Assembly (NCBI GenBank): GCA_023144585.1
Contig: JAGLFI010000008.1
Coordinates: 1 to 12,254 of the forward strand
DNA from: Desulfobacula sp.
Lineage (GTDB): Bacteria > Desulfobacterota > Desulfobacteria > Desulfobacterales > Desulfobacteraceae
Length of the DNA stretch: 12,254 nucleotides
Reading direction: 5' to 3'
Under the pieces are notes generated by a model, which saw only the letters and a program-made list of their open reading frames with translations, did not search any database and had not been told where the DNA came from. This document shows, piece by piece, positions 1 to 12,254 of the stretch; the first letter of the stretch is position 1, and every line of letters starts with the position of its first letter. The position numbers were made by a program, and so were the translations under genes.

Positions 1-51
1 AATACATCGCCCTATTCTTCCATACCCGTTAATTGCAATATTAATTTTCAT
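1..51 (-). CDS. gap: Glyceraldehyde-3-phosphate dehydrogenase, N-terminal 17 codons (cut by window edge)
   Basis: The reverse strand from 51 down to 1 reads MKINIAINGYGRIGRCI. This matches the start of type I GAPDH, where an INGFGRIGR-type sequence forms the first strand and glycine-rich turn of the NAD(P)-binding Rossmann fold. The frame starts at an ATG (51-49) and stays open to the edge. The enzyme interconverts glyceraldehyde-3-phosphate and 1,3-bisphosphoglycerate in cytoplasmic glycolysis or gluconeogenesis. Only 17 residues are visible, so the catalytic Cys cannot be checked. No strong Shine-Dalgarno is seen; only a weak AAGA lies about 10 nt upstream. The gene is divergent from the HDOD-GGDEF gene and has no evident link to the Hdr/Fdh row. 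Confidence 0.8.
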   Translation of the reverse strand, partial: MKINIAINGYGRIGRCI

Positions 52-288
52 ATTTATTTTATCTTAAAATTTTTCCCATTTCTATTCAAAAACAACTTAG
101 CATCAAATCCATAAACCACGGTACAATTTAATTGAAAAAATTATAAATGTCTAATAGAATTTTCATATTTGTATTTTCTTTGAGAAAAAGGTTTTCTTGT
201 ATTCCTGACTGAATTCATGTTAAATTTCTGATACCTTTTCTCACCATTAAATATTTTAACCTGAACATGAAAGGTTATTTTTTGGCTC
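52..288. other. Divergent intergenic region between gap and the HDOD-GGDEF gene
   Basis: This 237-bp, very AT-rich stretch separates two genes that point away from each other, so it should hold promoters for both. For gap, a weak candidate on the minus strand is TTGATG (106-101), a 16-nt spacer, and TAGAAA (84-79), which would give a short leader. For the plus-strand gene see the candidate at 132-160. I see no RNA gene, riboswitch fold or clear operator palindrome. An 83-codon minus-strand frame crosses from here into the HDOD gene but has no recognisable sequence and is not called. Confidence 0.6.
132..160 (+). promoter_or_regulatory. Candidate sigma-70-type promoter for the HDOD-GAF-GGDEF gene
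   Basis: TTGAAA (132-137) and TAGAAT (155-160) are separated by exactly 17 nt and point toward the gene starting at 289. Start of transcription would fall near 167 and leave a leader of about 120 nt. The region is so AT-rich that a match of this quality can occur by chance, so this is a candidate only. Confidence 0.35.
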
Positions 289-2289
289 ATGATGATGAAT
301 GACAAGCTCATACTCCCTTTAGAATCTGATATCAAACAGGTTTTAAAGCTTGATGTCAAAGAGGTTCCAAGCTTTCCTCCTGTGATGGCCAAACTATTGG
401 AAATCTATAGTGATGAGGATGCATCCACTCAAGATCTTTCCAAACTTGTGGAAACAGACCCGGGGATTTCAGCCAGGGTGCTGGGTATTGTAAATTCTGC
501 ATTGTATGGCCTGAGACAAAACATAACTGCTGTATCCGATGCAGTCATCTATCTTGGGTTTGACGAGGTTAAAAGGCTTTGTCTCGGGGTCACTGTCTTT
601 GAAAAAATGTTTCAACCAAAAAAGAAAAAGCAGTTTAACAGAATCTTTTTCTGGCGGCACTGTCTTTGTGTGGCCACCTTAAGCAAAGCCATTGCTGAAG
701 AAATCCGGCACCCGAATCCCGGGGAGGCATATATCAGTGGACTTTTACATGACTTTGGAAAGATTATTTTTGATCTCCAGGGACGAGTCAATTATGGTGA
801 TTTGATCACCAATGTAACAAAATCCACAGGCCAGATGATCACCGAAGAAAGGGAACTCATGGGCATGGGACATGATGATCTGGGCGCCTATTACGGTTCT
901 TTGTGGCATCTGCCCGAATCCCTTATCCTGGCCATAAAATACCACCATCAGCGGTATGAACACCTGGATCTTCCCAAAGAGGAGGCACTGCTGATATCCA
1001 TTGTTTCCCTTGCCAATTTTCTGTCCTGGACCCAGGGCATGGGATCGGTTGATATCATTCGCCCACCAATTCTTCAGCCTGAAGTTGAAAAAAATATAAA
1101 CCTGAGCAAAATCGATCTCATAAAGGTCATCACCCAGATGGACAGGGAAATAGAAAACACATCAAAATTTTATCATTTTGCTTTTCCTTCCTCCAGCCAG
1201 TTCAGAGAGAACCTGCTCAGGGCAAATCTCAAGCTGTGCAGTATTAATACCATCTATTATTATCTTGGAGAACATCAGACCAGGACTATGGATATATCTC
1301 AGATAAAAGAGAGTATCTCCACGCCCCACCGCAGCCTTAATCCTAAAAAAATTATTACCTCTACCTTAAAGGCCATTTATAAAGATTTCAAATTCGACAG
1401 GCTTTATGTCATGAAGGTGGTAAAAAACCTTAGAAGCCTTAAAGTGATTGAGTCCCTTGATGCTGTGGGCACCAAAATGGATTTAACGTCAATTGAAATC
1501 CCCATCAATAAGACGGCAGGCGGCTTTGTTCACTGTCTGCGGAACCAGGAGCCCGTGATGGTCCGTGGCAGGACTTTAGGTGAAAAAAAAGCCCTGAAAC
1601 AATTTAAAATCAAAGAAATGATCATAGTGCCTTTCTATAGTAATAACAAGGTCATCGGTATCCTGGGAATGGATAATATTGTTTCAAAAAAGGCCATTTT
1701 ACCGGATATATTATCTTCCATTGCCATTGTGGCCAATGAGCTTGGAATGGCCCTGGAAAACGCAGGTGCCTACAATGAGGCAAAAGCGGTTTCTCTCAAA
1801 GACGGGCTCACAGGCCTTTTAAACCGTGTGGCCATTGACGACCTGCTGGCAAAATCATTCAGAAAAGCTGTGGATGGAAAAAATGATCTATCCCTTGTAA
1901 TGATTGATGTAGATTTTTTTAAAAAATTTAATGATAAATTCGGGCATCAGGCCGGGGACAATGTCCTTAAACTGATTGCCACCACTTTAAAAAAGCTATC
2001 CAGACCCTTTGATTATGTGGGGCGGTATGGCGGCGAAGAATTTATTGTCATCCTGAATAATACTGATTTACCCAAAGCTATTGTTTATGCTGAAAGGATA
2101 CGCAAAGAAATTGAGCATCTGGGCACACTTCTGATCAACAGGTTTCCAGGGCTTTCCCTCACTGTCAGTGCCGGTGTCAGTGAATACCAGAAAAGTGTTA
2201 AAAACCGGGATAATTTCATTGCAATGGCTGATAAAGCCCTTTACCAGGCAAAGGAAACCGGAAGGAATAAAGTGGTGCCCAGTGAATAA
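289..2289 (+). CDS. HDOD-GAF-GGDEF protein, probable diguanylate cyclase
   Basis: This 666-residue cytoplasmic signalling protein has no membrane segment or signal peptide. An HDOD domain spans about residues 25-225, opening with the FPPVMAKLLEI element and including an HDFGK at 154. A GAF-like sensor domain lies at about 347-490. A GGDEF domain follows from about 504 to 660. The catalytic loop is GGEEF (581-585), intact for making cyclic di-GMP from two GTP. RxxD (R572-D575) lies five residues before it, the arrangement of the product-inhibition I-site in PleD. Three consecutive ATGs occur at 289, 292 and 295; the only Shine-Dalgarno-like run is AAAGG at 270-274, somewhat far, so the first ATG is preferred. 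The gene converges on the fdhA end of the minus-strand row. The GAF ligand is not predictable, and no c-di-GMP target is visible nearby. Confidence 0.9.
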   Translation: MMMNDKLILPLESDIKQVLKLDVKEVPSFPPVMAKLLEIYSDEDASTQDLSKLVETDPGISARVLGIVNSALYGLRQNITAVSDAVIYLGFDEVKRLCLGVTVFEKMFQPKKKKQFNRIFFWRHCLCVATLSKAIAEEIRHPNPGEAYISGLLHDFGKIIFDLQGRVNYGDLITNVTKSTGQMITEERELMGMGHDDLGAYYGSLWHLPESLILAIKYHHQRYEHLDLPKEEALLISIVSLANFLSWTQGMGSVDIIRPPILQPEVEKNINLSKIDLIKVITQMDREIENTSKFYHFAFPSSSQFRENLLRANLKLCSINTIYYYLGEHQTRTMDISQIKESISTPHRSLNPKKIITSTLKAIYKDFKFDRLYVMKVVKNLRSLKVIESLDAVGTKMDLTSIEIPINKTAGGFVHCLRNQEPVMVRGRTLGEKKALKQFKIKEMIIVPFYSNNKVIGILGMDNIVSKKAILPDILSSIAIVANELGMALENAGAYNEAKAVSLKDGLTGLLNRVAIDDLLAKSFRKAVDGKNDLSLVMIDVDFFKKFNDKFGHQAGDNVLKLIATTLKKLSRPFDYVGRYGGEEFIVILNNTDLPKAIVYAERIRKEIEHLGTLLINRFPGLSLTVSAGVSEYQKSVKNRDNFIAMADKALYQAKETGRNKVVPSE

Positions 2290-2301: not shown

Positions 2302-2341
2302 CCAGACGGTTTATATTACAAAACCGCCTGGTAAAATTTTT
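2302..2341 (+). terminator. Rho-independent terminator in the convergent gap
   Basis: An 11-bp stem (2302-2312 with 2321-2331) encloses an 8-nt loop. It has one A-C mismatch on the plus strand, which is a G-U pair on the minus strand. On the plus strand it is followed by TAAAATTTTT, so it fits as terminator of the HDOD-GGDEF gene, whose stop is 12 bp upstream. The same hairpin lies just past the fdhA stop (2342-2340). It could also stop minus-strand transcription, although no clear U-run follows in that direction. Confidence 0.7.
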
Positions 2342-4379
2342 ACGCTTTCTCAAGTTTTACAGCGCAGACCTTGAGTTCCGGTATCTTAGCAATAGGATCA
2401 TAAGCCGGATTGGTCAGCTTATTCACATTTGTTTCTTCAAAATGGAAAGGCATAAACACCACGCCCGGGTCCACACGATCGGTGATCATGATCTTTGTGA
2501 CAATCTCACCTCTCCGGGAGGCCATTTTGATCTGATGTCCATCACAGATATCAAGATTTTGCGCATCAACAGGATTAATTTCAAGGAATCCTTCTGGAAT
2601 TTCAAAATCAAGAGACTTGGAATTTCTGGTCATGGTGCCGGTGTGGTAATGGGCATAAACACGGCCGGTGGTCATCCAGAAAGGATATTCATCATCAATC
2701 ACTTCAGCCGGTGGATTATAGGTAATTGCATGGAAAAGTCCTTTCCCACGGGTAAATTTTCCATCCTTGTGCAAAAAAGGTGTCCCAGGATGTTCTCTGG
2801 TTGGACAGGGCCATTGCAGTCCCACGCCTTCCAGCCGTTCATAGCTTATGCCCCCGTAAGAGGGTGTCAGGCTTGCAATTTCATTAAAAATATCTTCCGG
2901 AGAATCATAGTTCATTTCAAAACCGAACCGGTTGGAAATTTCCTGGATGATCTCCCAGTCCTGTCTTGAGTCTCCCACAGGGTCAATGGCTTTTCTCACC
3001 CGCATCACCCGTCTTTCCGTATTGGCAAAGGTTCCGTCTTTTTCTGCAAACGAAACACCCGGCAGTACCACATCGGCAAGCTTAGCCGTAGGGGTAAGAA
3101 AGATATCCTGAACAATGAGAAGTTCAACCTTTTTCAGGACCTTTTTAACATGATCGGCATCAGGATCGGACACAACCGGGTTTTCACCCATGACCCAAAG
3201 TGCCTTTACTTCATCATTTTCTATGCCTGCAAACATCTCAGGGATGGTTAAGCCAATATTGGTCGGCAATTGATCCACTCCCCAGGCCTGGGCGAATTTC
3301 TTATTGGCAGCCCCAAGGGTTACCGGCTGGTATCCGGTATAGACATTGGGAAGACCGCCCATGTCACAGGCACCCTGCACATTGTTCTGCCCGCGAAGGG
3401 GATTGACCCCTGTTCCAATCTTTCCGATATTTCCGGTCAGCATGGAAAGATTTGCCAAGGACTTTACATTATTAACACCATTGGTATGCTGGGTTATCCC
3501 CATGCAGTAAACAATAGAGGCTCTATCAGCTTCTCCATACATTTTGGCAAGCGCTTCAATATCTTTGACAGATACACTACAGATTTCTGATGCTTCTTCA
3601 ACAGTAAAATTATCAATCCCCTGTTTAAACGCATCAAACTCTTCTGTGTTTTGCGCTATAAATTTTTCATCGGCAAGCCCCTTTTCCATGATCACTTTCA
3701 TCATCCCGTTTAAAAGAGCCACATCTGTTCCGGGCTTATGACGGATATAAAGATCAGCAAAACCGGCAATCTGATTTTTTCTCGGGTCTGCAACAATTAG
3801 TTTGGCACCTTTTTCAATGGCCCTGAAAATACGCGTGGCAACTAAAGGATGGGTGGTTGCCGTATTGGACCCGATAATAAAGATGGCATCAGTTGTTTCT
3901 AATTCACCCATTGCATTTGTCATTGCTCCACTGCCAAAAGATGCGGCAAGACCTGCCACGGTGGAGGAATGTCACAGCCGGGCACAGTGATCGACACTGT
4001 TGGTACCAATGGCAGCTCTTGCAAACTTCTGCATGAGATAATTCTCTTCATTGGTTACCTTGGCTGATGCAAAAAACCCTACAGAATCAGAGCCGTTTGC
4101 TTCTTTTATTTCTTTTAATTTCGATACGGTAAAATCCAGGGCTTCATCCCAGGAAACTTCTGTAAGTTTTCCGTCTTTTCTTAACAATGGTTTGTTCAAT
4201 CTTTTCTCAGACTGAACAAATTGATGGACATTCCATCCCTTGATACAAAGTTTGCCTTCATTTACAGGGCTTGTTTTGCAGGGGGTTGTATGGGTTAATT
4301 TTCCATCAAGGGACTCAAGAAAAAGGTTGCATCCACATCCACAATAAGTGCAGGTTGTCAGCGTATTCCTGTAATCCAT
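2340..4379 (-). CDS. fdhA: Formate dehydrogenase catalytic subunit FdhA, selenoprotein (Sec136)
   Basis: This 679-residue molybdo/tungstopterin enzyme oxidises formate to CO2 and passes two electrons to an N-terminal [4Fe-4S] cluster. The cluster is bound by C10, C13, C17 and C45, with K47 following as in the family. An in-frame UGA at 3974-3972 falls in HCARL-U-HSSTVAGL, the active-site signature. Sec136 and His137 match E. coli FdhF Sec140 and His141. Arg329, in NPLRGQNNVQGACDMG, matches the second substrate-binding arginine. The dinucleotide-binding C-terminal domain covers about 570-675. Length is close to archaeal-type FdhA; no extra N-terminal ferredoxin domains and no Tat signal are present, so it should be cytoplasmic. 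ATG at 4379 has an AGAGGA site about 7 nt upstream, and FdhB ends 25 bp before it. Reading the UGA as stop would give two false fragments of 135 and 539 residues. Confidence 0.95.
3926..3974 (-). promoter_or_regulatory. SECIS element of fdhA with its UGA
   Basis: UGA (3974-3972) is followed after 18 nt by the loop GGUCU (3953-3949), closed by GGCA (3957-3954) and UGCC (3948-3945). A lower stem, CUCCAC (3966-3961) with GUGGAG (3931-3926), surrounds it. Loop sequence and 18-nt spacing agree, from memory, with the E. coli fdhF element that binds SelB. Part of the match comes from conserved protein sequence, but the lower stem is not dictated by it. Confidence 0.85.
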
Positions 4380-4404: not shown

Positions 4405-5208
4405 TTACTTTTCGGGCGCAGGGCCCATTAAGTTTAAGGGTGATTGTTCATTTTTATTGATCCCGGATGTAAACCCGAACTCAGCATTCATAATCTTTGA
4501 TGTCTTTTTATATAAAAGCCGCAACGGAATACCAGACGGGCAGGTTTCATCACAAAGACCACAATCAATACACCGGTCTGTCATATGCATGGCCCGGGTC
4601 AAATGAAATACCGGAATATCAACCGGAAGCTCGCCTTTTGATATAATATCCTCACATTCAAGGCTGCATTCCCTGCAAAAACACATGGGACAGATATCCC
4701 GGCAGCCATAGCATTTTACACATTTTGAAAACTGATTCTTCCAAAAGGAAAACCGTTTTGACAGATCCATGTCTTCCATATCCTGCACACCCTGTTGGGT
4801 AATTCCTTCTGTTTTTTCACCTGCCACAAGTTCATCCGGGTATGGTTTTTTGCACTCACACGCTTTTGCAAGTTCTTGTGGGCAGGCGATACCAATGGTC
4901 ATCACTTTATCCGGCTCAAGCTGATTCAGCCTGTACAGGACATAAAGTCCCCTTTCATCACACCCGCGAACCAGAACTCCAAAAACATCCTCGGGATATT
5001 GTCTTGCAATGGTAATAAGAACTTTATTCAGAGGATATCTTGCATCTCCCGGCTTTTTTGTATCACCCAGGCAAAGCGGTTCAAGATCATCCTCTTTTTG
5101 AAACAGACATGGGGCCACATGACCATTTGCCATTGCAAGTGCCACAACTCCCTTTACTGAACCATCTGAAAGAAGCTTGCTTATTTTCTGTCTTACTATA
5201 TCAATCAT
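4405..5208 (-). CDS. fdhB: FdhB/FrhB-like iron-sulfur subunit paired with FdhA
   Basis: This 267-residue protein carries two C-terminal cluster motifs. The first is a cysteine-rich CVKCYGCRDICPMCFCREC (C163, C166, C169, C173, then C176, C178, C181). The second is a ferredoxin motif with C213, C216, C219 and C223. The first resembles the C-terminal part of the archaeal FdhB/FrhB (coenzyme F420 dehydrogenase beta) family. The N-terminal half has further cysteines (C34, C46, C83, C109, C117, C119). It is much shorter than methanogen FdhB (about 400 residues), so an F420/FAD site may be absent; I would expect it to relay electrons between FdhA and MvhD. It sits 25 bp before fdhA and 41 bp after mvhD. 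ATG at 5208 has a weak TAGGT site. The name rests on the cysteine pattern and on adjacency to fdhA. Confidence 0.7.
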   Translation of the reverse strand: MIDIVRQKISKLLSDGSVKGVVALAMANGHVAPCLFQKEDDLEPLCLGDTKKPGDARYPLNKVLITIARQYPEDVFGVLVRGCDERGLYVLYRLNQLEPDKVMTIGIACPQELAKACECKKPYPDELVAGEKTEGITQQGVQDMEDMDLSKRFSFWKNQFSKCVKCYGCRDICPMCFCRECSLECEDIISKGELPVDIPVFHLTRAMHMTDRCIDCGLCDETCPSGIPLRLLYKKTSKIMNAEFGFTSGINKNEQSPLNLMGPAPEK

Positions 5209-5249: not shown

Positions 5250-5687
5250 CTAAGCAACATCTTTGGATGTTTGCTTTTTCAATGGTGACGGGCCCAGGGG
5301 TTTAAGAACATCAATAAACTCATTGATTTCCTCAACAAATTCAGGCGCCTCAGCTGAGGACACCCATCTGGCCCGAAGCCGATCTTTTTCAATACCACAA
5401 AAATCCAGCATCTGGGAAAGAACCGTTACTCGTTTTTCAGCACAATAATTACCATACAGGTAATTGCATTCACTCAAATGTCAGCCACCCACGAAAATGC
5501 CGTCAACCCCTTGTTGGAAGGCGCGCAATACATGGTGGGCAGACACGCTTCCAGAGCACATTACCCGGATAATACGAATGTTTGCCGGGTACTGCATACG
5601 ACTGACCCCAGCCAGGTCAGCAGCGGCATATGCTCACCAGGTGCAAAGAAAACATATAATAGTGGGTTCAAAATTATCGTCGCTCAT
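5250..5687 (-). CDS. mvhD: MvhD-like electron-transfer protein with two selenocysteines (Sec18, Sec69)
   Basis: Translated through two UGAs this is a 145-residue MvhD/FlpD-family protein. In methanogens MvhD is a small [2Fe-2S] protein linking hydrogenase or formate dehydrogenase to HdrA. Here [19 protein letters not shown] has Sec18 where the paralogue at 8986-9405 has Cys. VMCSG (C44) is kept. VGG-U-HLSEC has Sec69, the position of Sec68 in that paralogue, followed by C74. The frame begins at ATG 5687-5685 with AAGGA 9 nt upstream, 24 bp after the preceding hdrA stop, and ends 41 bp before fdhB. Without readthrough only the last 75 residues would be called, from a TTG at 5477. Homology is continuous across both UGAs, so a double nonsense pseudogene is unlikely. 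Its place between HdrA and FdhBA suggests it passes electrons between them. Confidence 0.9.
5447..5483 (-). promoter_or_regulatory. SECIS-like hairpin after UGA 69 of the two-Sec mvhD
   Basis: UGA is at 5483-5481. A 7-bp perfect stem, AAUUACC (5465-5459) with GGUAAUU (5453-5447), encloses the loop UGUAU. The loop starts 22 nt after the UGA and has G in its second position. The paralogous mvhD has the same hairpin with its outer A-U pair replaced by C-G. Confidence 0.75.
5602..5636 (-). promoter_or_regulatory. SECIS-like hairpin after UGA 18 of the two-Sec mvhD
   Basis: UGA is at 5636-5634. CUGACC (5620-5615) pairs perfectly with GGUCAG (5607-5602) around the loop UGGCUGG. A flanking G-U pair could extend the stem to 7 bp. 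The loop begins 19 nt after the UGA with G in its second position. The Cys-encoding paralogue has nearly the same residues here, but its different synonymous codons destroy the pairing. Confidence 0.7.
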
Positions 5688-5711
5688 TTACTTTATTCCT
5701 TATAACTATTG

Positions 5712-7385
5712 TCAAGCAGCCCCGATCTGGGCCAGCAACTGCTCTGGTTTATATCCGCAAAGCTGCGCACTGTGAGACGGACAGGTAGCCGCACAATTTC
5801 CACATCCTTTGCAAAGAATTTCATTAATCTCACAGATTCTCTTGTCCCTGTTGTATGTAATGGCTTCATAGGGGCACATGGTAAGGCATGCCTTGCAGCC
5901 CACACATGACTCAGGATTAATTTTTGCCACAATGGCGCTTTTCACCAGTTTGTCCTTGAACAAAATGGCTGCCACTCTTGATGCAACTCCCAAACCCTGC
6001 GTTCTGGCTTCCGTAGATGTGGCAGGATACCGTCCCGATCCGCAGACAAAAATACCATCTGCTGCAAAATCAAGGGGACGAAGCTTTGCATGGGCTTCTA
6101 AGAAAAATCCATTCTGGTCAGTGGGTACCCGCATCATATTGGCAACTGCCGGGGCGTCACTTCTGGGAACAAGGGGAGTTGACAAAACGACAAGGTCTGT
6201 ATCAAGGTCTATTATTTTGCCGGTAATGCTCTGAAAAAAACTGACCTTTCCTTCCTTGACTTCCGGTGGATTATCAGGATTGTACACATCGAATTGTATC
6301 CCTTTTCCCCTGGCATCCCAGAGCATCTGTTCTTTATGGGTGCCATACATCTGCATGTCACGATAAAGGATTCTCACATCAATCAATGGATACTTTTCCT
6401 TAACGATCATGGCATTTTTAACACCGATCATGCAGCAGATTCTTGAGCAGTATTCTCTTTCTTTGGTCCTGGCTCCGGCGCACTGGATAAACACAATTCG
6501 CCTGGCAGTAAGATCATCTTTTTTAAGCTTTTGTTCCAGCTCCATTAACGAAATCACAGTTTCTCCGTCATACCCGAAAAGCCCTTTCGGGATCAAAGGA
6601 ACAGCACCTGTGGCCACCACAATACAACCGACCTTGTCTTTAATTAAGCCATTTTGTGTATCAATTTTGATTTCAAAGTTACCAATATAGCCACCCGTCT
6701 CTTTAACGATTGCTTTTGTATAACAGGTAATATTGGATCGGGACTGGACATCATCAATAATTTTAGAAAGCAGCGCCCGGGCACTCCCCCCTGTATCCAG
6801 TTGATGGACCTGTTGCAAAAGACCACCAAAATTTGATGTTTTTTCAACCAGCATAATGTCCAGGCCCATATCTGCCAGAGCCTGGGCAGCAGACAATCCT
6901 GCAATGCCACCCCCCATCACCAGAACCTTTCTTACCAGGGATGATTCAATCTCTTCTTGGGGTTCCAATCCCGCACTTTTTGCAACACCCATTCGGATCA
7001 ACTCTTTGGCCTTCTGGGTCGCATCATCCCGCTTCCCCATATGAACCCAGGAGCACTGATCCCTGATATTGACCATTTCAAAAAGATAGGGATTGAGACC
7101 TGCTTCAGCACAGGAGCTTGAAAACAATGGCTGATGGGTTCTGGGCGAACAGGATGCCACCACCACCCGGTTCAAGTTCTGACCCTTGATGGCTTTTTTA
7201 ATTTCCACAATCCCGGCTTCAGAGCATGTGTAAAGATTTTCCTTTACATACACAACATTGGGAAGGGTTTTGGCATATTCAGCCACATCGGCACAATCCA
7301 GATGTCCGGCAATATTTGAACCGCAATCACAGACAAATACCCCGATTCTGGGTTCTTCATAAAGTATCAAATCATTCATATTCAT
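5712..7385 (-). CDS. hdrA: HdrA-like flavoprotein, C-module (N-terminal Hdr domain, FAD domain, two ferredoxin clusters)
   Basis: The 557-residue product belongs to the HdrA family. It opens with the HdrA N-terminal domain: VFVCDCGSNIAG at 17-27, C54, C79, and IRDQCSWVH at 107-115. An FAD/NAD-binding domain starts with MGGGIAG near 157. CSRICC at 313-318 and the YRDMQMYG stretch follow. Two C-terminal [4Fe-4S] motifs are C494/497/500/504 and C525/528/531/535. The segment after the glycine-rich loop reads LLQQVHQLDTGG, so this module lacks the PTNDCA(C/U) motif found in the next protein upstream. It aligns along its length with the second half of the fused HdrA at 9418-12254. ATG 7385 has AAGG about 8 nt upstream and lies 15 bp after the HdrA-N stop. 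The HdrA-C plus MvhD order recalls QmoB, which fuses both domains. It probably forms one complex with the adjacent HdrA-N. Confidence 0.88.
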   Translation of the reverse strand: MNMNDLILYEEPRIGVFVCDCGSNIAGHLDCADVAEYAKTLPNVVYVKENLYTCSEAGIVEIKKAIKGQNLNRVVVASCSPRTHQPLFSSSCAEAGLNPYLFEMVNIRDQCSWVHMGKRDDATQKAKELIRMGVAKSAGLEPQEEIESSLVRKVLVMGGGIAGLSAAQALADMGLDIMLVEKTSNFGGLLQQVHQLDTGGSARALLSKIIDDVQSRSNITCYTKAIVKETGGYIGNFEIKIDTQNGLIKDKVGCIVVATGAVPLIPKGLFGYDGETVISLMELEQKLKKDDLTARRIVFIQCAGARTKEREYCSRICCMIGVKNAMIVKEKYPLIDVRILYRDMQMYGTHKEQMLWDARGKGIQFDVYNPDNPPEVKEGKVSFFQSITGKIIDLDTDLVVLSTPLVPRSDAPAVANMMRVPTDQNGFFLEAHAKLRPLDFAADGIFVCGSGRYPATSTEARTQGLGVASRVAAILFKDKLVKSAIVAKINPESCVGCKACLTMCPYEAITYNRDKRICEINEILCKGCGNCAATCPSHSAQLCGYKPEQLLAQIGAA

Positions 7386-7400
7386 TTTGGCAACCTTTCT

Positions 7401-8945
7401 TTACGATGCCTTTTTATTATTTTTTTTCATTATTGCCTGCACAGCCCTTGCAGCAGCAGAACTTGCCTGGGCAACGGATTCAGGAATATCCATGGGACTG
7501 TGGGCACACCCGCAAACAAAAATACCCTCCCTTGATGTATCAAGGGGATCGGCAGGCTGGGTTTTAAAGAATCCATAGGCATCCACATCAATGGATAGGG
7601 TATCTGCAATTTTCTGTGTACTTTTTACAGGCTCGCAGGCTGTGGCCAGCACGACCAGATCAAAGGTTTCCCTTTTCACTTTTTGTTCCAGGGTATCCTC
7701 ATAGATCAGAACAGGACTTTCATCTGTATTTTTTGTAATTTCCGCCACACGGGACCGCTTATAAGAAATATTTGAATTATTTCCCCCTCGGACCTTATAC
7801 ACTTCAAACCCTTTACCAACCGCCCTGATATCCATTCCAAAAATAACCGAATGGGTATCATTATCATGTTCATGGGCAATAATGGCTTCCTTGATGGAAT
7901 GCATGCAGCAATAGCCGTAACAAAAAGGATAAAATCTTAAATCCCTTGATCCCACACACTGGATAAAGGCAAGATTTTTAGCACTTGTAAACCCTTTGGC
8001 TTTTTCTTTTAAAGCTTCGAGGGGAGTGGCATTTTCAAGATGAGCTTCATATTTTTTGGCCCATTTGTCTTGATCCTTTTCCAGGTCATCATTGGCATTC
8101 AGGCTGCCAGCCTTATAGGCAGAGTAAAATTCAACACTATCCTGACCATGATTCTTTTCAAACCTGTCCAACGCTTTTTGAGATTTCTTTACTTTTTTCT
8201 CAAAAACCGCAATCTGGGCCGTCACCTTGCGATCGGACGGACGGTAAATATGGCCTTCCGTGGGCCCGGAAGCAGACAAAAATCGTTCAAATTCCATGGC
8301 AGTGATCACATTGTCCAACTGGGTATAACGATATTCCGGCAGTTTAGCCGGGTCAAAAACATCATATCCCGTGGCCACAATGACGGCACCCACTAAAAGC
8401 TCCAGAATAGATTCTTTCTGATCAAAATTAATGGCATCTGCTTCACATTTTTTCTGACAGATCCCGCATTTTTTCCCTGTAAGCACCCGACAATGATCCG
8501 GGTCTATGACATGGGTGGAGGGTATCCCCTGTGCAAACCAGGAATAGATGGCTTTGCGCTCTGCATGGCCTTCATTATAAAGATCTAAAACACTTGTGGG
8601 GCAAATTTCGGTACAGGCGCCGCAGCCCGTACATTTGTCTTCTTCCACAAATCTGGCTTTTCTTCTAATAATGGCCGTAAAATTCCCGGCTTCACCCTCT
8701 ATCTTTTCAAGCTCGCTGTAAGCCAGAAGTGTTATATTGGGATGTCGACCGACATCCAGCATCTTAGGCGAAAGTATTCAGATGGCACAGTCATTGGTGG
8801 GAAAGGTCTTGTCAAGCTGAGCCATTTTCCCACCAATGGAGGCAAGGCTCTCCACAAGGTGAACCCTAAATCCCATCTCCGCCAGATCCAGTGAGGACTG
8901 AATCCCGGCAATTCCTCCGCCAAGGACAAGTATATCATTTGTCAC
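7401..8945 (-). CDS. hdrA: HdrA-like flavoprotein, N-module, selenoprotein (Sec56) with a large charged insertion
   Basis: Read through the UGA at 8780-8778, this 514-residue protein begins [13 protein letters not shown], an FAD-binding turn at 9-14. It continues to [25 protein letters not shown], where HdrA proteins have Cys or Sec near the flavin. The inserted ferredoxin domain has C105/108/111/115 and C152/160/163/167. A further cysteine group is QCVGSRD (C330) and CYGYCC (342-347). Residues about 241-322 form a lysine/glutamate-rich insertion absent from the fused paralogue. It lacks the HdrA N-terminal domain and the C-terminal ferredoxins, both supplied by the next gene. The start is GTG 8945-8943, set by a strong AGGAGG 8 nt upstream; no ATG precedes the flavin motif. 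In the family this flavin is the site of electron bifurcation. Without readthrough it would be miscalled from 8762 and lose its FAD motif. Confidence 0.9.
8740..8780 (-). promoter_or_regulatory. SECIS-like hairpin of the hdrA N-module gene
   Basis: After UGA 8780-8778, a perfect 7-bp stem, GGAUGUC (8757-8751) with GACAUCC (8746-8740), closes a GGUC tetraloop. The loop starts 27 nt after the UGA, further than in the other four elements but within the range generally accepted for bacterial SECIS. The loop resembles GGUCU of fdhA. These codons encode the conserved VGRHPN stretch, yet the fused paralogue encodes similar residues without this stem. Confidence 0.75.
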
Positions 8946-8985: not shown

Positions 8986-9405
8986 TCAGGCCACCTTTTT
9001 GATATTGGCAGGACCCAGGGCTTTTATATCTTCTGTAAATTCATTTGCAACCCAGGCAAACTTTGTCCCTTCAGCAGAAGAGATCCATTCCAACCTGATT
9101 CTCTTTGGATCAATTCCCAGAAGGTTTAAAAATTCACCGGTCATTTGAAACATTTTTTCAGCTTTTACATTACCATCCAGGTAATGACATTCACCCATAT
9201 GTCAGCCAGAGACTAAGATTCCGTCCGCCCCCTTTTCAAAGGCTTTCAAAATATAATTGGGATTAATCCCCCCCGAGCACATGACCCTGATAATTCTCAT
9301 ATTGGGCGGATACTGGAACCGGCTGACACCTGCAAGATCTGCTGCTGCATAGGAACACCAGTTGCAGGCAAATGTTAAAATCTGTGGATTAAACTCCTTT
9401 GACAT
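8986..9405 (-). CDS. mvhD: MvhD-like electron-transfer protein, selenoprotein (Sec68)
   Basis: Translated through UGA 9204-9202, the product is a 139-residue MvhD/FlpD-family protein. It shows [18 protein letters not shown] (C14, C17), VMCSG, and [16 protein letters not shown] with Sec68 and C73. These cysteine positions are presumed to hold the [2Fe-2S] cluster of MvhD, which relays electrons to HdrA. ATG 9405 is chosen over the in-frame TTG at 9411 because AAGGA (9416-9412) lies 6 nt before the ATG but directly abuts the TTG. It starts 12 bp after the fused HdrA stop and ends 40 bp before HdrA-N, so it is probably the partner of the fused HdrA. Its own stop is a UGA (8988-8986) at the family's normal C-terminus, so UGA serves both meanings in this gene. 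It is the single-Sec paralogue of the protein at 5250-5687. Confidence 0.92.
9168..9204 (-). promoter_or_regulatory. SECIS-like hairpin of the single-Sec mvhD
   Basis: UGA is at 9204-9202. CAUUACC (9186-9180) pairs perfectly with GGUAAUG (9174-9168) around the loop UGGAU. The loop starts 22 nt after the UGA, with G in positions two and three. The element is at the same place as the hairpin after UGA 69 of the paralogue, with a compensatory change in the outer pair. Confidence 0.78.
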
Positions 9406-9417: not shown

Positions 9418-12254
9418 CTATTGATCCAGTGCTGTCTCAACCATGGCCAGCACCTCATTATCATAATGAAAAACACCTGCAGCTCCTGTGGGACAGGCTG
9501 CTGCACAGGCTGCACACCCTTTGCAAAGGGCCTGCTGCACTTTGGCAATTTTTACCCCGTTTTCAAGCTCAGCCACCAGTATGGCCCCGAATGCACACGC
9601 TTCTTCACAGGCACCACAGCCCCGGCATAAGGCTTCATTCACTTCGGATACCACACCGTCGACGGTGACGCTTTCTTTGGACAATACAACAATTGCCCTT
9701 GATGCTGCCGCTTTTGCCTGGGAAATACATTCTTCCACAGGCTTGGGATAATGGGCCGTCCCGGCAAGGAAAAGACCGTCCGTGGCAAAATCCACCGGAC
9801 GAAGTTTTGCATGGGCTTCCATGAAAAAATTATCATCATTCAAGGTCAGCTTGAACATCTGTGCAAGAACGGTATTATCTTCTGCAATAATGGAAGAGGC
9901 AAGCACGACAAAATCTACAGATATAGCAACATCCATGCCCAAAATTCGATCTTTTACCTGGACTATCAATGTGTCTCCATCATCTTTTACCAGAGGTTTT
10001 TCTTCAGGATCAAACCGGATAAAAATGATACCCGCATCCCTTGCCTGTTTGTATAACATTTCCCGTTGCCCATAGGTTCTGATATCTCTGTAAAGAATAT
10101 ACACATTCATGTCAGGATTCATTTGTTTGAACATTAATGCAGACTTTATGGAATGGGTACAGCATACTTTCGAACAATATGGCCGGGAGGGTTCCCTTGA
10201 TCCCACGCACTGGATAAAGACGGCACTATTGCTTCTTTTGATCAGGTACTTGTCCTCTCTGAGTATCGGATCAAGATCAAGATGGGTCATCACCCGTTTA
10301 TCCTGACCGTATAAATATTCATCCGGCGTACTTGCCTTTGCTCCGGTGGCAATAATGACCGCACCATGCTCAAGGATTGTTTCATTGCTGCTATTACCGA
10401 TAGTTGTCTTAAAATTCCCTATCAATCCTGTGGTTGATCTGATTTGAAACCCTGTAAAAACTTCTATCAAATCATGGTTTTCAACTTTTTCAATCATTTT
10501 TTTGACATTGTCTGCAATGGGCTCACCCTTCCAGGTATTATTCAGGTTCAGGGCATGACCCCCCAGCATGTCAGTTTTTTCAACCAGATAGGTATAAAAC
10601 CCTTGATCTGCAAGCCCCATAGCGGCTGAGAGACCTGCCACGCCACCCCCTATGACAAGACCTTTCTGGGTAACCCCTACGGTGGGTTGTGTCAGCGGTT
10701 TCATTAAAGAGGCTTTGGCAACGGCAATCCGAACCAGGTCCTTGGATTTTGCTGTGGCAAGCTCGGGTTCTTTTGAGTGAACCCAGGAGCACTGGTTCCT
10801 GATATTAGCCATTTCAACGAGATACTTATTGAGACTAGAATCTCTCAATGTTTCCTGAAAAAGTGCTTCATGTGTCCTTGGTGTGCAAGCGGCAATGACG
10901 ATCCGGTTCAGGTTGTTCTCTTCAATGACCTTCTTCATCTTGTCCTGTGTATCCTGGGAACAGGTAAACATGTTTTCTTCAACATAGGATACATTGGGTA
11001 ATGTTCTTGCATATTTCGCCACTGACGGGACATCAACGATTCCACCGATATTTGTTCCGCAATTACAGACAAATACGCCGACACTGGGTGTCTCGTTTAT
11101 AATATCCTTTTCTTTGGGATATTCCTTCAAGCTTGTGAGCGTGCCCCTAGCCTTTGAAAGCATGGCCCCTGCATCACAGGCAGCAGCACTGGCCTCCATA
11201 ACCGACATGGGAATATCCTTGGGTTCCTGGAGTGCACCGCACACATAAAACCCCTCTCTTGAAGTGCTGACCGGTGAAAAACTGGACGTTTCAATAAAAT
11301 TATTGAAATTGAGTTCGATTCCAAATTCTCTGACCTGCGCTGCCAGAGCCTTTGGGGTTTCCATTCCAACGGACAAAACTACCATATCAAATGTTTCAAC
11401 ACGATTTTGCCCCTCTTCTGTCACATAGGTACAGATAAGCTTTTTGTCCTCATTTTCCGTAATGGTATGAATCCTGGACCGGATAAACCGAACACCTTCA
11501 TCTTTTGCGCGGTCATAATATTTCTCAAAATCTTTTCCATAGGTCCTCATATCCATTAAAAATATAGAAGCTTCAAACTCACCGGATATATGATCCTTGG
11601 CCATCATGGCTTCCTTGACCGCATACATGCAGCAGACAGAAGAACAATACTGATGCTCGCATTTATTCTGATCCCTTGACCCCACACATTGAAGCCAGGC
11701 AACTTTTTTGGGTTCTGCCTTGTCCGGGTAACATTCAATATGACCGGAGGTCGGACCGCCTGCAGATAAAATTCTTTCAAACTCCATACTGGTCACTACA
11801 TTAGGAAATTTTGAATACTGAAGATTATCAAGATTTGAAGGATCAAAGGGTTTGAACCCGGCTGCCATGATGACAGACCCCACATTCAGGGTGATGATTT
11901 CTTCTTTGTCATCATAGTTGATGGCGCCCGCAGGACAAACCTTTGCACAGATTCCGCATTTATCTTTAAGCAGTTTTAAGCATCTTGACGGATCAATGAC
12001 ATATTTTAACGGCACAGACTGGGGATACGGCACATAAATGGCTTTTTTTTTATCAAGCCCTTCATTAAACTCATCCGGCGTTTTCCCGAGGCATTTTTTA
12101 GTACATTCTCCACAGGCAATGCATTTATCCATATCCACATACCGGGGAGCCTTTTTAATTAATACGGTAAAGTCACCCGCCTCACCGTCAATCTGTTGAA
12201 CTGTGGAAAGGGTGTGAAGTTGAATATTTAAGTGCCGGCCGACCTCGACCAGTT
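9418..12254 (-). CDS. hdrA: Fused double-module HdrA-like flavoprotein (5' end beyond the window)
   Basis: The frame is open to the right edge, giving 944 visible residues; the first GTG (12138) is internal, since recognisable HdrA sequence (VEVGRH...) precedes it. Visible residues about 40-110 carry the inserted ferredoxin domain (C44/47/50/54 and C91/99/102/106), then QCVGSRD, CSSVCC and the end of a first flavin module near 370. A second HdrA begins at about 390: VGVFVCNCGTNIGG, ACTPRTHEALF, IRNQCSWVH, GGGVAG near 535, CSKVCC, and two C-terminal [4Fe-4S] motifs (about 876-886 and 910-920). This equals HdrA-N plus HdrA-C joined by a short charged linker. The first module's flavin loop and its Cys/Sec position are off-window. 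It is followed after 12 bp by mvhD. It is presumably a cytoplasmic electron-bifurcating or electron-relay subunit; the redox partners are not shown by the sequence. Confidence 0.9.
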   Translation of the reverse strand, partial: LVEVGRHLNIQLHTLSTVQQIDGEAGDFTVLIKKAPRYVDMDKCIACGECTKKCLGKTPDEFNEGLDKKKAIYVPYPQSVPLKYVIDPSRCLKLLKDKCGICAKVCPAGAINYDDKEEIITLNVGSVIMAAGFKPFDPSNLDNLQYSKFPNVVTSMEFERILSAGGPTSGHIECYPDKAEPKKVAWLQCVGSRDQNKCEHQYCSSVCCMYAVKEAMMAKDHISGEFEASIFLMDMRTYGKDFEKYYDRAKDEGVRFIRSRIHTITENEDKKLICTYVTEEGQNRVETFDMVVLSVGMETPKALAAQVREFGIELNFNNFIETSSFSPVSTSREGFYVCGALQEPKDIPMSVMEASAAACDAGAMLSKARGTLTSLKEYPKEKDIINETPSVGVFVCNCGTNIGGIVDVPSVAKYARTLPNVSYVEENMFTCSQDTQDKMKKVIEENNLNRIVIAACTPRTHEALFQETLRDSSLNKYLVEMANIRNQCSWVHSKEPELATAKSKDLVRIAVAKASLMKPLTQPTVGVTQKGLVIGGGVAGLSAAMGLADQGFYTYLVEKTDMLGGHALNLNNTWKGEPIADNVKKMIEKVENHDLIEVFTGFQIRSTTGLIGNFKTTIGNSSNETILEHGAVIIATGAKASTPDEYLYGQDKRVMTHLDLDPILREDKYLIKRSNSAVFIQCVGSREPSRPYCSKVCCTHSIKSALMFKQMNPDMNVYILYRDIRTYGQREMLYKQARDAGIIFIRFDPEEKPLVKDDGDTLIVQVKDRILGMDVAISVDFVVLASSIIAEDNTVLAQMFKLTLNDDNFFMEAHAKLRPVDFATDGLFLAGTAHYPKPVEECISQAKAAASRAIVVLSKESVTVDGVVSEVNEALCRGCGACEEACAFGAILVAELENGVKIAKVQQALCKGCAACAAACPTGAAGVFHYDNEVLAMVETALDQ

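Follow-up and report, generated by a model that had tools for sequence, protein, structure and literature searches.

The gene mvhD-2, carried by the 12,254-nucleotide stretch of DNA analysed here (the window), is predicted from its sequence and those of its relatives to encode a genuine MvhD protein with two selenocysteine (Sec) residues, whose [2Fe-2S] cluster would relay electrons from an FdhBA formate-oxidising module to HdrA-type flavoproteins in an electron-bifurcating or electron-confurcating complex; we give this reading a probability of roughly 85%. The genes and elements concerned are the following:

9418..12252, minus strand: large HdrA-type protein, its N-terminus cut off by the end of the window
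8986..9405, minus strand: mvhD-1, the paralogue of mvhD-2, with C18 and, at the column-69 position, a single Sec (codon 9204-9202)
7401..8945, minus strand: HdrA-like flavoprotein, first half, with Sec in CAIU (codon 8780-8778)
5706..7385, minus strand: HdrA-like flavoprotein, second half
5250..5687, minus strand: mvhD-2, a 145-aa FlpD/MvhD protein with two in-frame UGA codons (Sec18 and Sec69); 172 bits with PF02662
5634..5636, minus strand: UGA codon 18, in C15-T-W-U18 (C-T-W-U), checked base by base
5601..5621, minus strand: hairpin 18, GCUGACCU-GGCUG-GGGGUCAGU, with an 8-bp stem (two G-U pairs) at +13..20/+26..33 after UGA 18
5481..5483, minus strand: UGA codon 69, in G-G-U69-H, checked base by base
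5448..5464, minus strand: hairpin 69, AUUACC-UGUAU-GGUAAU, with a 6-bp stem at +17..22/+28..33 after UGA 69
4405..5208, minus strand: FdhB-like iron-sulfur protein of 267 aa, directly downstream of mvhD-2
2340..4379, minus strand: FdhA, formate dehydrogenase alpha subunit, with Sec in CARLUHSS (codon 3974-3972); 867 bits with TIGR01591 (cut-off 666)

The mvhD-2 reading frame runs from an ATG at 5687-5685, with an AAGGA stretch immediately 5' of it, to a TAG stop at 5252-5250 on the minus strand, and with UGA read as Sec its product is MSDDNFEPTIICFLCTWU18...FVGGU69HLSEC...; a gene caller that halts at UGA would cut this frame after residue 17. The score with the Pfam FlpD profile (above) compares with a gathering cut-off of 22.3 bits, and the NCBIfam VhuD model (NF045873) gives 147.3 bits, under its cut-off of 215. 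The five Cys/Sec columns of the family are occupied by C15, U18, C44, U69 and C74, an HdrA partner, by which the MvhD/FlpD family is recognised, adjoins the gene, and the window has a single copy of the pattern W-U...M-C...G-U-H, which none of 200 shuffles contains. Six solved relatives were found by sequence (5odc_D, 8rvu_F, 8rvv_F, 9sw2_D, 7bkb_F and 9sfi_K). An ungapped alignment with chain D of 5ODC places columns 18 and 69 at Cys16 and Cys67, and in five of the six alignments (all but 9sfi_K) the relatives, unlike mvhD-2, have Cys at both columns.

The gene order of the minus-strand operon, conserved among its homologues, is large HdrA-type gene, mvhD-1, HdrA first half, HdrA second half, mvhD-2, FdhB-like gene and fdhA, with five UGA codons in total across four genes. 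HdrA, MvhD, FdhB (by synteny) and FdhA are encoded together, as in the Fdh-Hdr electron-bifurcating complex, and in these bacteria, which resemble sulfate reducers, MvhD-2 most likely hands formate-derived electrons on to the electron-splitting enzyme. The FdhB-like gene gave weak iron-sulfur profile matches, none above a family cut-off; the label FdhB rests on synteny and on the loci described in the accessible part of PMC2702500, not on a family match. The paralogue had been said to have only one Sec, and this is correct: mvhD-1 has its single Sec at column 69, followed by the same hairpin 69 as in mvhD-2 (at 9185-9169). The Rfam SECIS_3 model covers the Sec codon of FdhA (window 3919-3977, minus strand) at 41.3 bits, below its gathering score of 63. 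A divergent neighbour gene (window 169-2289, plus strand) encodes HDOD, GAF and GGDEF domains.

A species-level genome collection was scanned with the pattern TGG-TGA, ATG-TGY and GGN-TGA-CAY at exact spacing, and 47 stretches matched. Two of them (L061, Microbacterium, and L086, Nisaea) encode no MvhD and were dropped as chance matches, and the other 45 records encode a double-UGA MvhD, in all 43 distinct proteins. Their taxa are deltaproteobacterial or of Desulfobacterota type (two are labelled just "Proteobacteria"), and no archaeal-named record in the collection matched the W-U..MC..GU-H pattern. When codon 18 was relaxed to TGN, which allows Cys, Sec or Trp, 389 genomes of the window's order gave 26 matches including the window itself, 26/26 with TGA, and the reversed control gave none. 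In the window's phylum, Desulfobacterota to judge by the record titles, 86 of 395 genomes match the C-x-W-U core pattern (reversed control, one genome), and with the double form present in 45 records the two-Sec arrangement is not the rarity that the first-pass annotation took it to be. FdhB lies directly downstream of the double-UGA gene in 41 of the 45 records; in L046, L056 and L076 the sequence ends 400 nt or less from that gene, and the proportion is 41 of 42 where the next gene is identifiable. The double-Sec MvhD of L051 (Syntrophobacteraceae) is followed not by FdhB but by a VhuG-like hydrogenase small subunit (L051:2-751, minus strand), which scores 204 bits with NCBIfam VhuG (cut-off 450) and 114 bits with Pfam Oxidored_q6. 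A second MvhD, whole or in part, is present at 17 of the 45 double-UGA loci, and the one-Sec paralogue is C18/U69 in all 15 operons in which both columns are visible.

FdhB, which has a match in 258 of the 395 phylum genomes, was used as an anchor to avoid selecting for UGA, and the best 73 listed FdhB places (E ≤2.6e-48, the window included) were taken as the sample. An MvhD lies within 1.5 kb upstream at 66 of these best 73 listed places, and none at the other 7. The states of columns 18/69 (C, Cys; U, Sec) in the 66 are CC in 30, CU in 18, UU in 11 and UC in 7, so that only C or U, and never TAA or TAG, stands at either column in 66/66. The refuting outcome named at first pass, homologues of identical context without U or C at column 18, thus did not arise: C and U alternate there. 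All searches pooled gave 233 distinct MvhD sequences, a set enriched for UGA by design, in which columns 15, 44 and 74 are Cys in 231/231, 231/231 and 229/229 of the sequences that have the residue. Column 18 in this set is U in 138, C in 91, D in 1 and T in 1 (Cys or Sec in 229/231, with the Asp and the Thr in two remote domains), and column 69 is C in 135 and U in 96 (231/231); five of the 233, being partial or having Asp18 or Thr18, belong to none of the four classes. The two columns vary separately in bacterial MvhDs, and the window's own assembly holds UU, CU, UC and CC MvhDs as well as an Asp18 fusion domain. That assembly also holds an MvhD (L004, G000:C6:1468-1836) with C-N-F-U, which has Sec18 only and Phe in place of Trp, and which is missed by W-based patterns because of the Phe.

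A quick maximum-likelihood tree (225 sequences, 132 columns, both trait columns masked, drawn from the midpoint) requires at least 6 changes of state in column 18 and at least 10 in column 69. Sixty UU genes group with five UC genes in a single clade that lies within a grade of CU genes linked to FdhB; branch support is moderate, with SH-aLRT 90 for this clade of 65 and 71–86 for the next nodes outside it. Separate from it are 62 U18-only genes, which form a clade of their own, and the CU genes of the MvhD-1 type; since U18 occurs in separate clades, column 18 probably became Sec more than once. Within the FdhB-linked MvhDs the double form looks to have been assembled stepwise, although this depends on rooting: U69 would have come first (the CU grade), then U18 together with its hairpin (UU), and a few members would later have lost U69 (UC).

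Judged by sequence, each UGA of mvhD-2 and its close homologues has its own hairpin of bacterial SECIS type, which is there with the UGA and has in most cases degenerated where a Cys codon stands instead. The loop of hairpin 18 (GGCUG, 5 nt, +21..25) has G first and that of hairpin 69 (UGUAU, +23..27) has G second. All 57 distinct UU segments pair fully after UGA 18 in the form GCUGACCU-5 nt-GGGGU(C/U)AGU from +13 to +33, and the C-to-U change in the 3' arm, seen in 9/57, gives a G-U pair; the motif common to UU and CU genes after UGA 69 is AUUACC-5 nt-GGUAAU from +17 to +33. Full pairing of stem 18 (8/8) was found in 61/61 UU, 5/76 UC, 0/34 CU and 1/57 CC genes, and full pairing of stem 69 (6/6) in 60/61 UU, 34/34 CU, 1/74 UC and 1/57 CC genes (two UC genes are too short to score for this stem); in other words, stem 69 is fully paired in 94 of 95 U69 genes versus 2 of 131 C69 genes. 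The five UC members of the UU clade have hairpin 18 intact (5/5), and hairpin 69 is fully paired in 1/5. In stem 69, a compensatory change replaces an A-U pair by G-C in the UU gene of L080, and the UU gene of L076 has one mismatch. The all-Cys, FdhB-linked MvhD of L168 has the exact hairpin-69 stem, which may be a remnant of a lost Sec site, or chance.

Because the stems are nearly invariant, support for the hairpins comes from frozen codons and hardly from covariation. In UU genes the modal codon share is 0.82–1.0 for codons 22–29 (1.0 for the six-fold degenerate Leu25 and Ser29) and 0.98–1.0 for codons 76, 77, 79 and 80, with 0.69 for loop codon 78; the other codons mostly have shares of 0.3–0.8, and a few two-fold codons reach 0.89. 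The residues encoded around hairpin 69 (xYxxGN) are identical in 54/57 CC genes, so the protein does not force the hairpin-69 codons. Both hairpins fit the bacterial SECIS (bSECIS) model as given in the accessible part of PMC13188914 (stem of 4–16 bp, loop of 3–9 nt, G at loop position 1 or 2, loop 16–37 nt after the UGA), the G being first in loop 18 in 61/61 and second in loop 69 in 95/95. Folding relative to synonymous recodings (28 sequences per class) gave mean z values of −1.80 after UGA 18 and −0.80 after UGA 69 in UU genes, −0.90 after UGA 69 in CU genes and −0.13 after Cys69 in CC genes, where the −0.80 is barely beyond same-gene control segments (+0.19 to −0.53); support from folding energies is strong at site 18 and weak at site 69. 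The UC class had a mean z of +0.50 against such recodings, and consensus folding found no shared hairpin after the UGA of the UC (U18-only) genes at L190–L272. An Rfam search with E up to 1 gave no match for either MvhD hairpin, listing SECIS_3 of FdhA alone.

Values of pN/pS in 400 random pairs of double-UGA genes are 0.15 for residues 7–17, 0.18 for residues 19–68 and 0.34 for residues 70–134, and such low values flanking both UGA codons indicate that the frame is under purifying selection on either side of each. No SelB or tRNA-Sec over cut-off was found in the window's own assembly, which is 68% complete; both were found over cut-off in 10/10 same-genus genomes that carry the C-T-W-U motif, and SelB and tRNA-Sec would insert Sec at each site independently. 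The fragmented assembly and its lack of a SelB match over cut-off might be taken to point to a sequencing error, a pseudogene or a reassigned UGA, but the 45 further records with the double UGA, the purifying selection, the alternation of UGA with Cys only and the Sec machinery of the ten same-genus genomes leave that reading a practically negligible chance. Bacterial Sec insertion is inefficient, and two insertions per chain are costly, which would favour decoding of only one UGA while the other truncates the protein or is bypassed by a downstream start such as Met31 or Met43. Met43 is in fact present in 58/61 UU sequences, though the pattern that retrieved most of them demands it; residue 31, however, is Met in just 29/61, the pN/pS of 0.15 lies upstream of UGA 18, each UGA has a dedicated hairpin, and the frame is uninterrupted at these positions in the Cys homologues, so we consider decoding of one UGA alone very unlikely. 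The two Sec sites assigned to positions 18 and 69 at first pass therefore stand, on the strength of the same double UGA in 45 records, purifying selection and a hairpin for each UGA.

Both Sec residues had also been placed at or near the [2Fe-2S] cluster, and here the two sites part company. A [2Fe-2S] cluster needs four ligands. In 30 homologues of an HdrA-MvhD fusion (found in 26 of the 59 matching genomes; the FlpD domain scores 139 bits in the query), which we take to be QmoB, columns 15, 44, 69 and 74 are Cys in 30/30 and column 18 is Asp in 30/30; the remote second domain of L271 has Thr at column 18 and Cys at the other four. The simplest inference from four Cys kept and column 18 replaced is that columns 15, 44, 69 and 74 are the ligands and column 18 is not, so Sec69 is probably a cluster ligand, as proposed, and Sec18 probably is not one. 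Sec69 would then replace one of four Cys ligands and alter the potential or exchange rate of the cluster, and Sec18 would replace the fifth, non-ligand Cys of a CxxC motif beside the cluster, where it may be a second-shell or redox-active selenol. That both are ligands, with CxWU as a ligand pair, U69 as the third ligand and another conserved Cys left free, is rather unlikely: CxxC-type motifs commonly supply a ligand pair and all five Cys/Sec columns are near-invariant among MvhDs, but column 18 alone is replaced, always by Asp, in the fusions, and by Thr in the L271 domain. It is possible that Asp serves as a ligand at column 18 of the fusions.

The first-pass annotation further held that the version of MvhD wired to formate dehydrogenase is the one with two Sec, from which it suggested functional tuning. 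The association holds here and in 41 of 42 records, but 55 of the 66 FdhB-adjacent MvhDs at the best 73 listed places are not UU, and the UU gene of L051 adjoins a VhuG-like gene. Contexts were counted for 84 HMM-confirmed U18 matches in 88 loci: 38 are UC genes adjoining NuoE-like genes, 36 are UC genes in other or cut contexts, 8 are FdhB-adjacent (6 UU, 2 UC), and one UU and one partial gene have cut flanks. In this count four places appear twice (L273, L276, L278 and L279 are L190, L206, L210 and L216), L194, L204, L245 and L259 gave no U18 MvhD, and nine FdhB-adjacent places (five UU including the window, four UC) are omitted, so the FdhB share is understated. Eleven loci, L051 among them, had no match to a context query, and several of their MvhDs have an extra ferredoxin-type domain. 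The MvhDs of U18-only loci L190–L272 have a C-terminal extension or two [4Fe-4S] motifs, and many adjoin NuoE/NuoF-like genes. With U18/C69 common beside NuoE/NuoF-like genes (38/84), U18 was rejected as a mark specific to formate dehydrogenase; Sec18 is no such mark, and the double form nearly is one.

Functional tuning of MvhD by Sec is a hypothesis. That Sec18 does so specifically for formate dehydrogenase as electron donor is unlikely, even though FdhB follows nearly every double-UGA gene and the one-Sec paralogue has C18 in 15/15 operons: C18 is found in 48 of the 66 FdhB-adjacent MvhDs (best 73 listed places), U18/C69 is common beside NuoE/NuoF-like genes as well as in MvhDs that have an additional ferredoxin domain, the UU gene of L051 is an exception, and the shared ancestry of one clade could account for the association. 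A scheme in which the selenolate ligand Sec69 acts with a non-ligand selenol, Sec18, in a C-x-W-U pair that would store or gate a second electron is speculative, and we rate its chances as low; Cys18 in the all-Cys forms would act likewise, more slowly. If true, it would bear on how the bifurcating FAD receives two electrons from a one-electron cluster. The accessible text of PMC12350162, on the archaeal Elp-Hdr structure, reports delivery of two electrons from cluster to FAD over 25 Å by a mechanism described as unknown.

The two-Sec kind of MvhD is already known from archaea. The accessible text of PMC9622424 states that in M. maripaludis "vhuD contains two TGA codons", which bears out the first-pass mention of a two-Sec VhuD in Methanococcus-type archaea, and Table 1 in the accessible part of PMC13188914 lists the VhuD/FrhD family as CxxU with 2 Sec, and multiple Sec "in archaea". 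These archaeal proteins, known to us by description, are like mvhD-2 in being MvhD/FlpD proteins with two UGA codons and CxxU, whereas mvhD-2 differs from Methanococcus VhuD in being bacterial, linked to formate dehydrogenase and furnished with a hairpin within the coding sequence after each UGA. On the bacterial side, Sec-containing MvhD beside HdrA is shared with the FrhD/MvhD selenoproteins of Syntrophobacter and Desulfobacterium autotrophicum: the parts of PMC1794560 available to us report FrhD selenoproteins in Deltaproteobacteria, e.g. Syntrophobacter, and those of PMC2702500 report, for D. autotrophicum, Sec MvhDs, hdrA/hdrL loci with mvhD, and fdhB followed by fdhA in loci V and VI. 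The accessible part of PMC5109826 mentions one Sec mvhD in Desulfococcus multivorans. We found no statement of a bacterial double-Sec MvhD in the literature searched, in which subscription papers are thinly covered, and this is not proof of absence.

MvhD of the Methanospirillum hungatei Fdh-Hdr-Fmd complex and ElpC of Methanothermobacter marburgensis join FdhB or ElpB to HdrA and carry a [2Fe-2S] cluster; according to the accessible text of PMC12350162, MvhD or ElpC connects Fdh or Elp to Hdr, with the [2Fe-2S] cluster near the bifurcating FAD. Both complexes contain HdrBC, whereas no HdrB or HdrC was found among the eight main window frames scanned; the window ends upstream, and these genes may lie elsewhere. 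The U18-only MvhDs of HdrA-MvhD-NuoE/F clusters, which we take to be the Sec-containing BamF, resemble mvhD-2 in having Sec18 in C-H/N-W-U and differ from it in Cys69, an extra C-terminal domain and a separate clade. BamF has been linked to selenite (PMC13119186, accessible part). Beside these systems, what appears to be new here is a bacterial form linked to formate dehydrogenase with two separate hairpins, a four-state series, and a probable split between a ligand and a non-ligand Sec. The two frozen hairpins show that a short gene can hold two putative bacterial SECIS elements some 150 nt from each other, each retained or lost independently of the other. The family also forms a natural series, CC, CU, UC and UU, at two given positions of a small cluster protein within a single genomic context, and even in one organism, so that what selenium does next to an electron-bifurcating flavin can be tested site by site.
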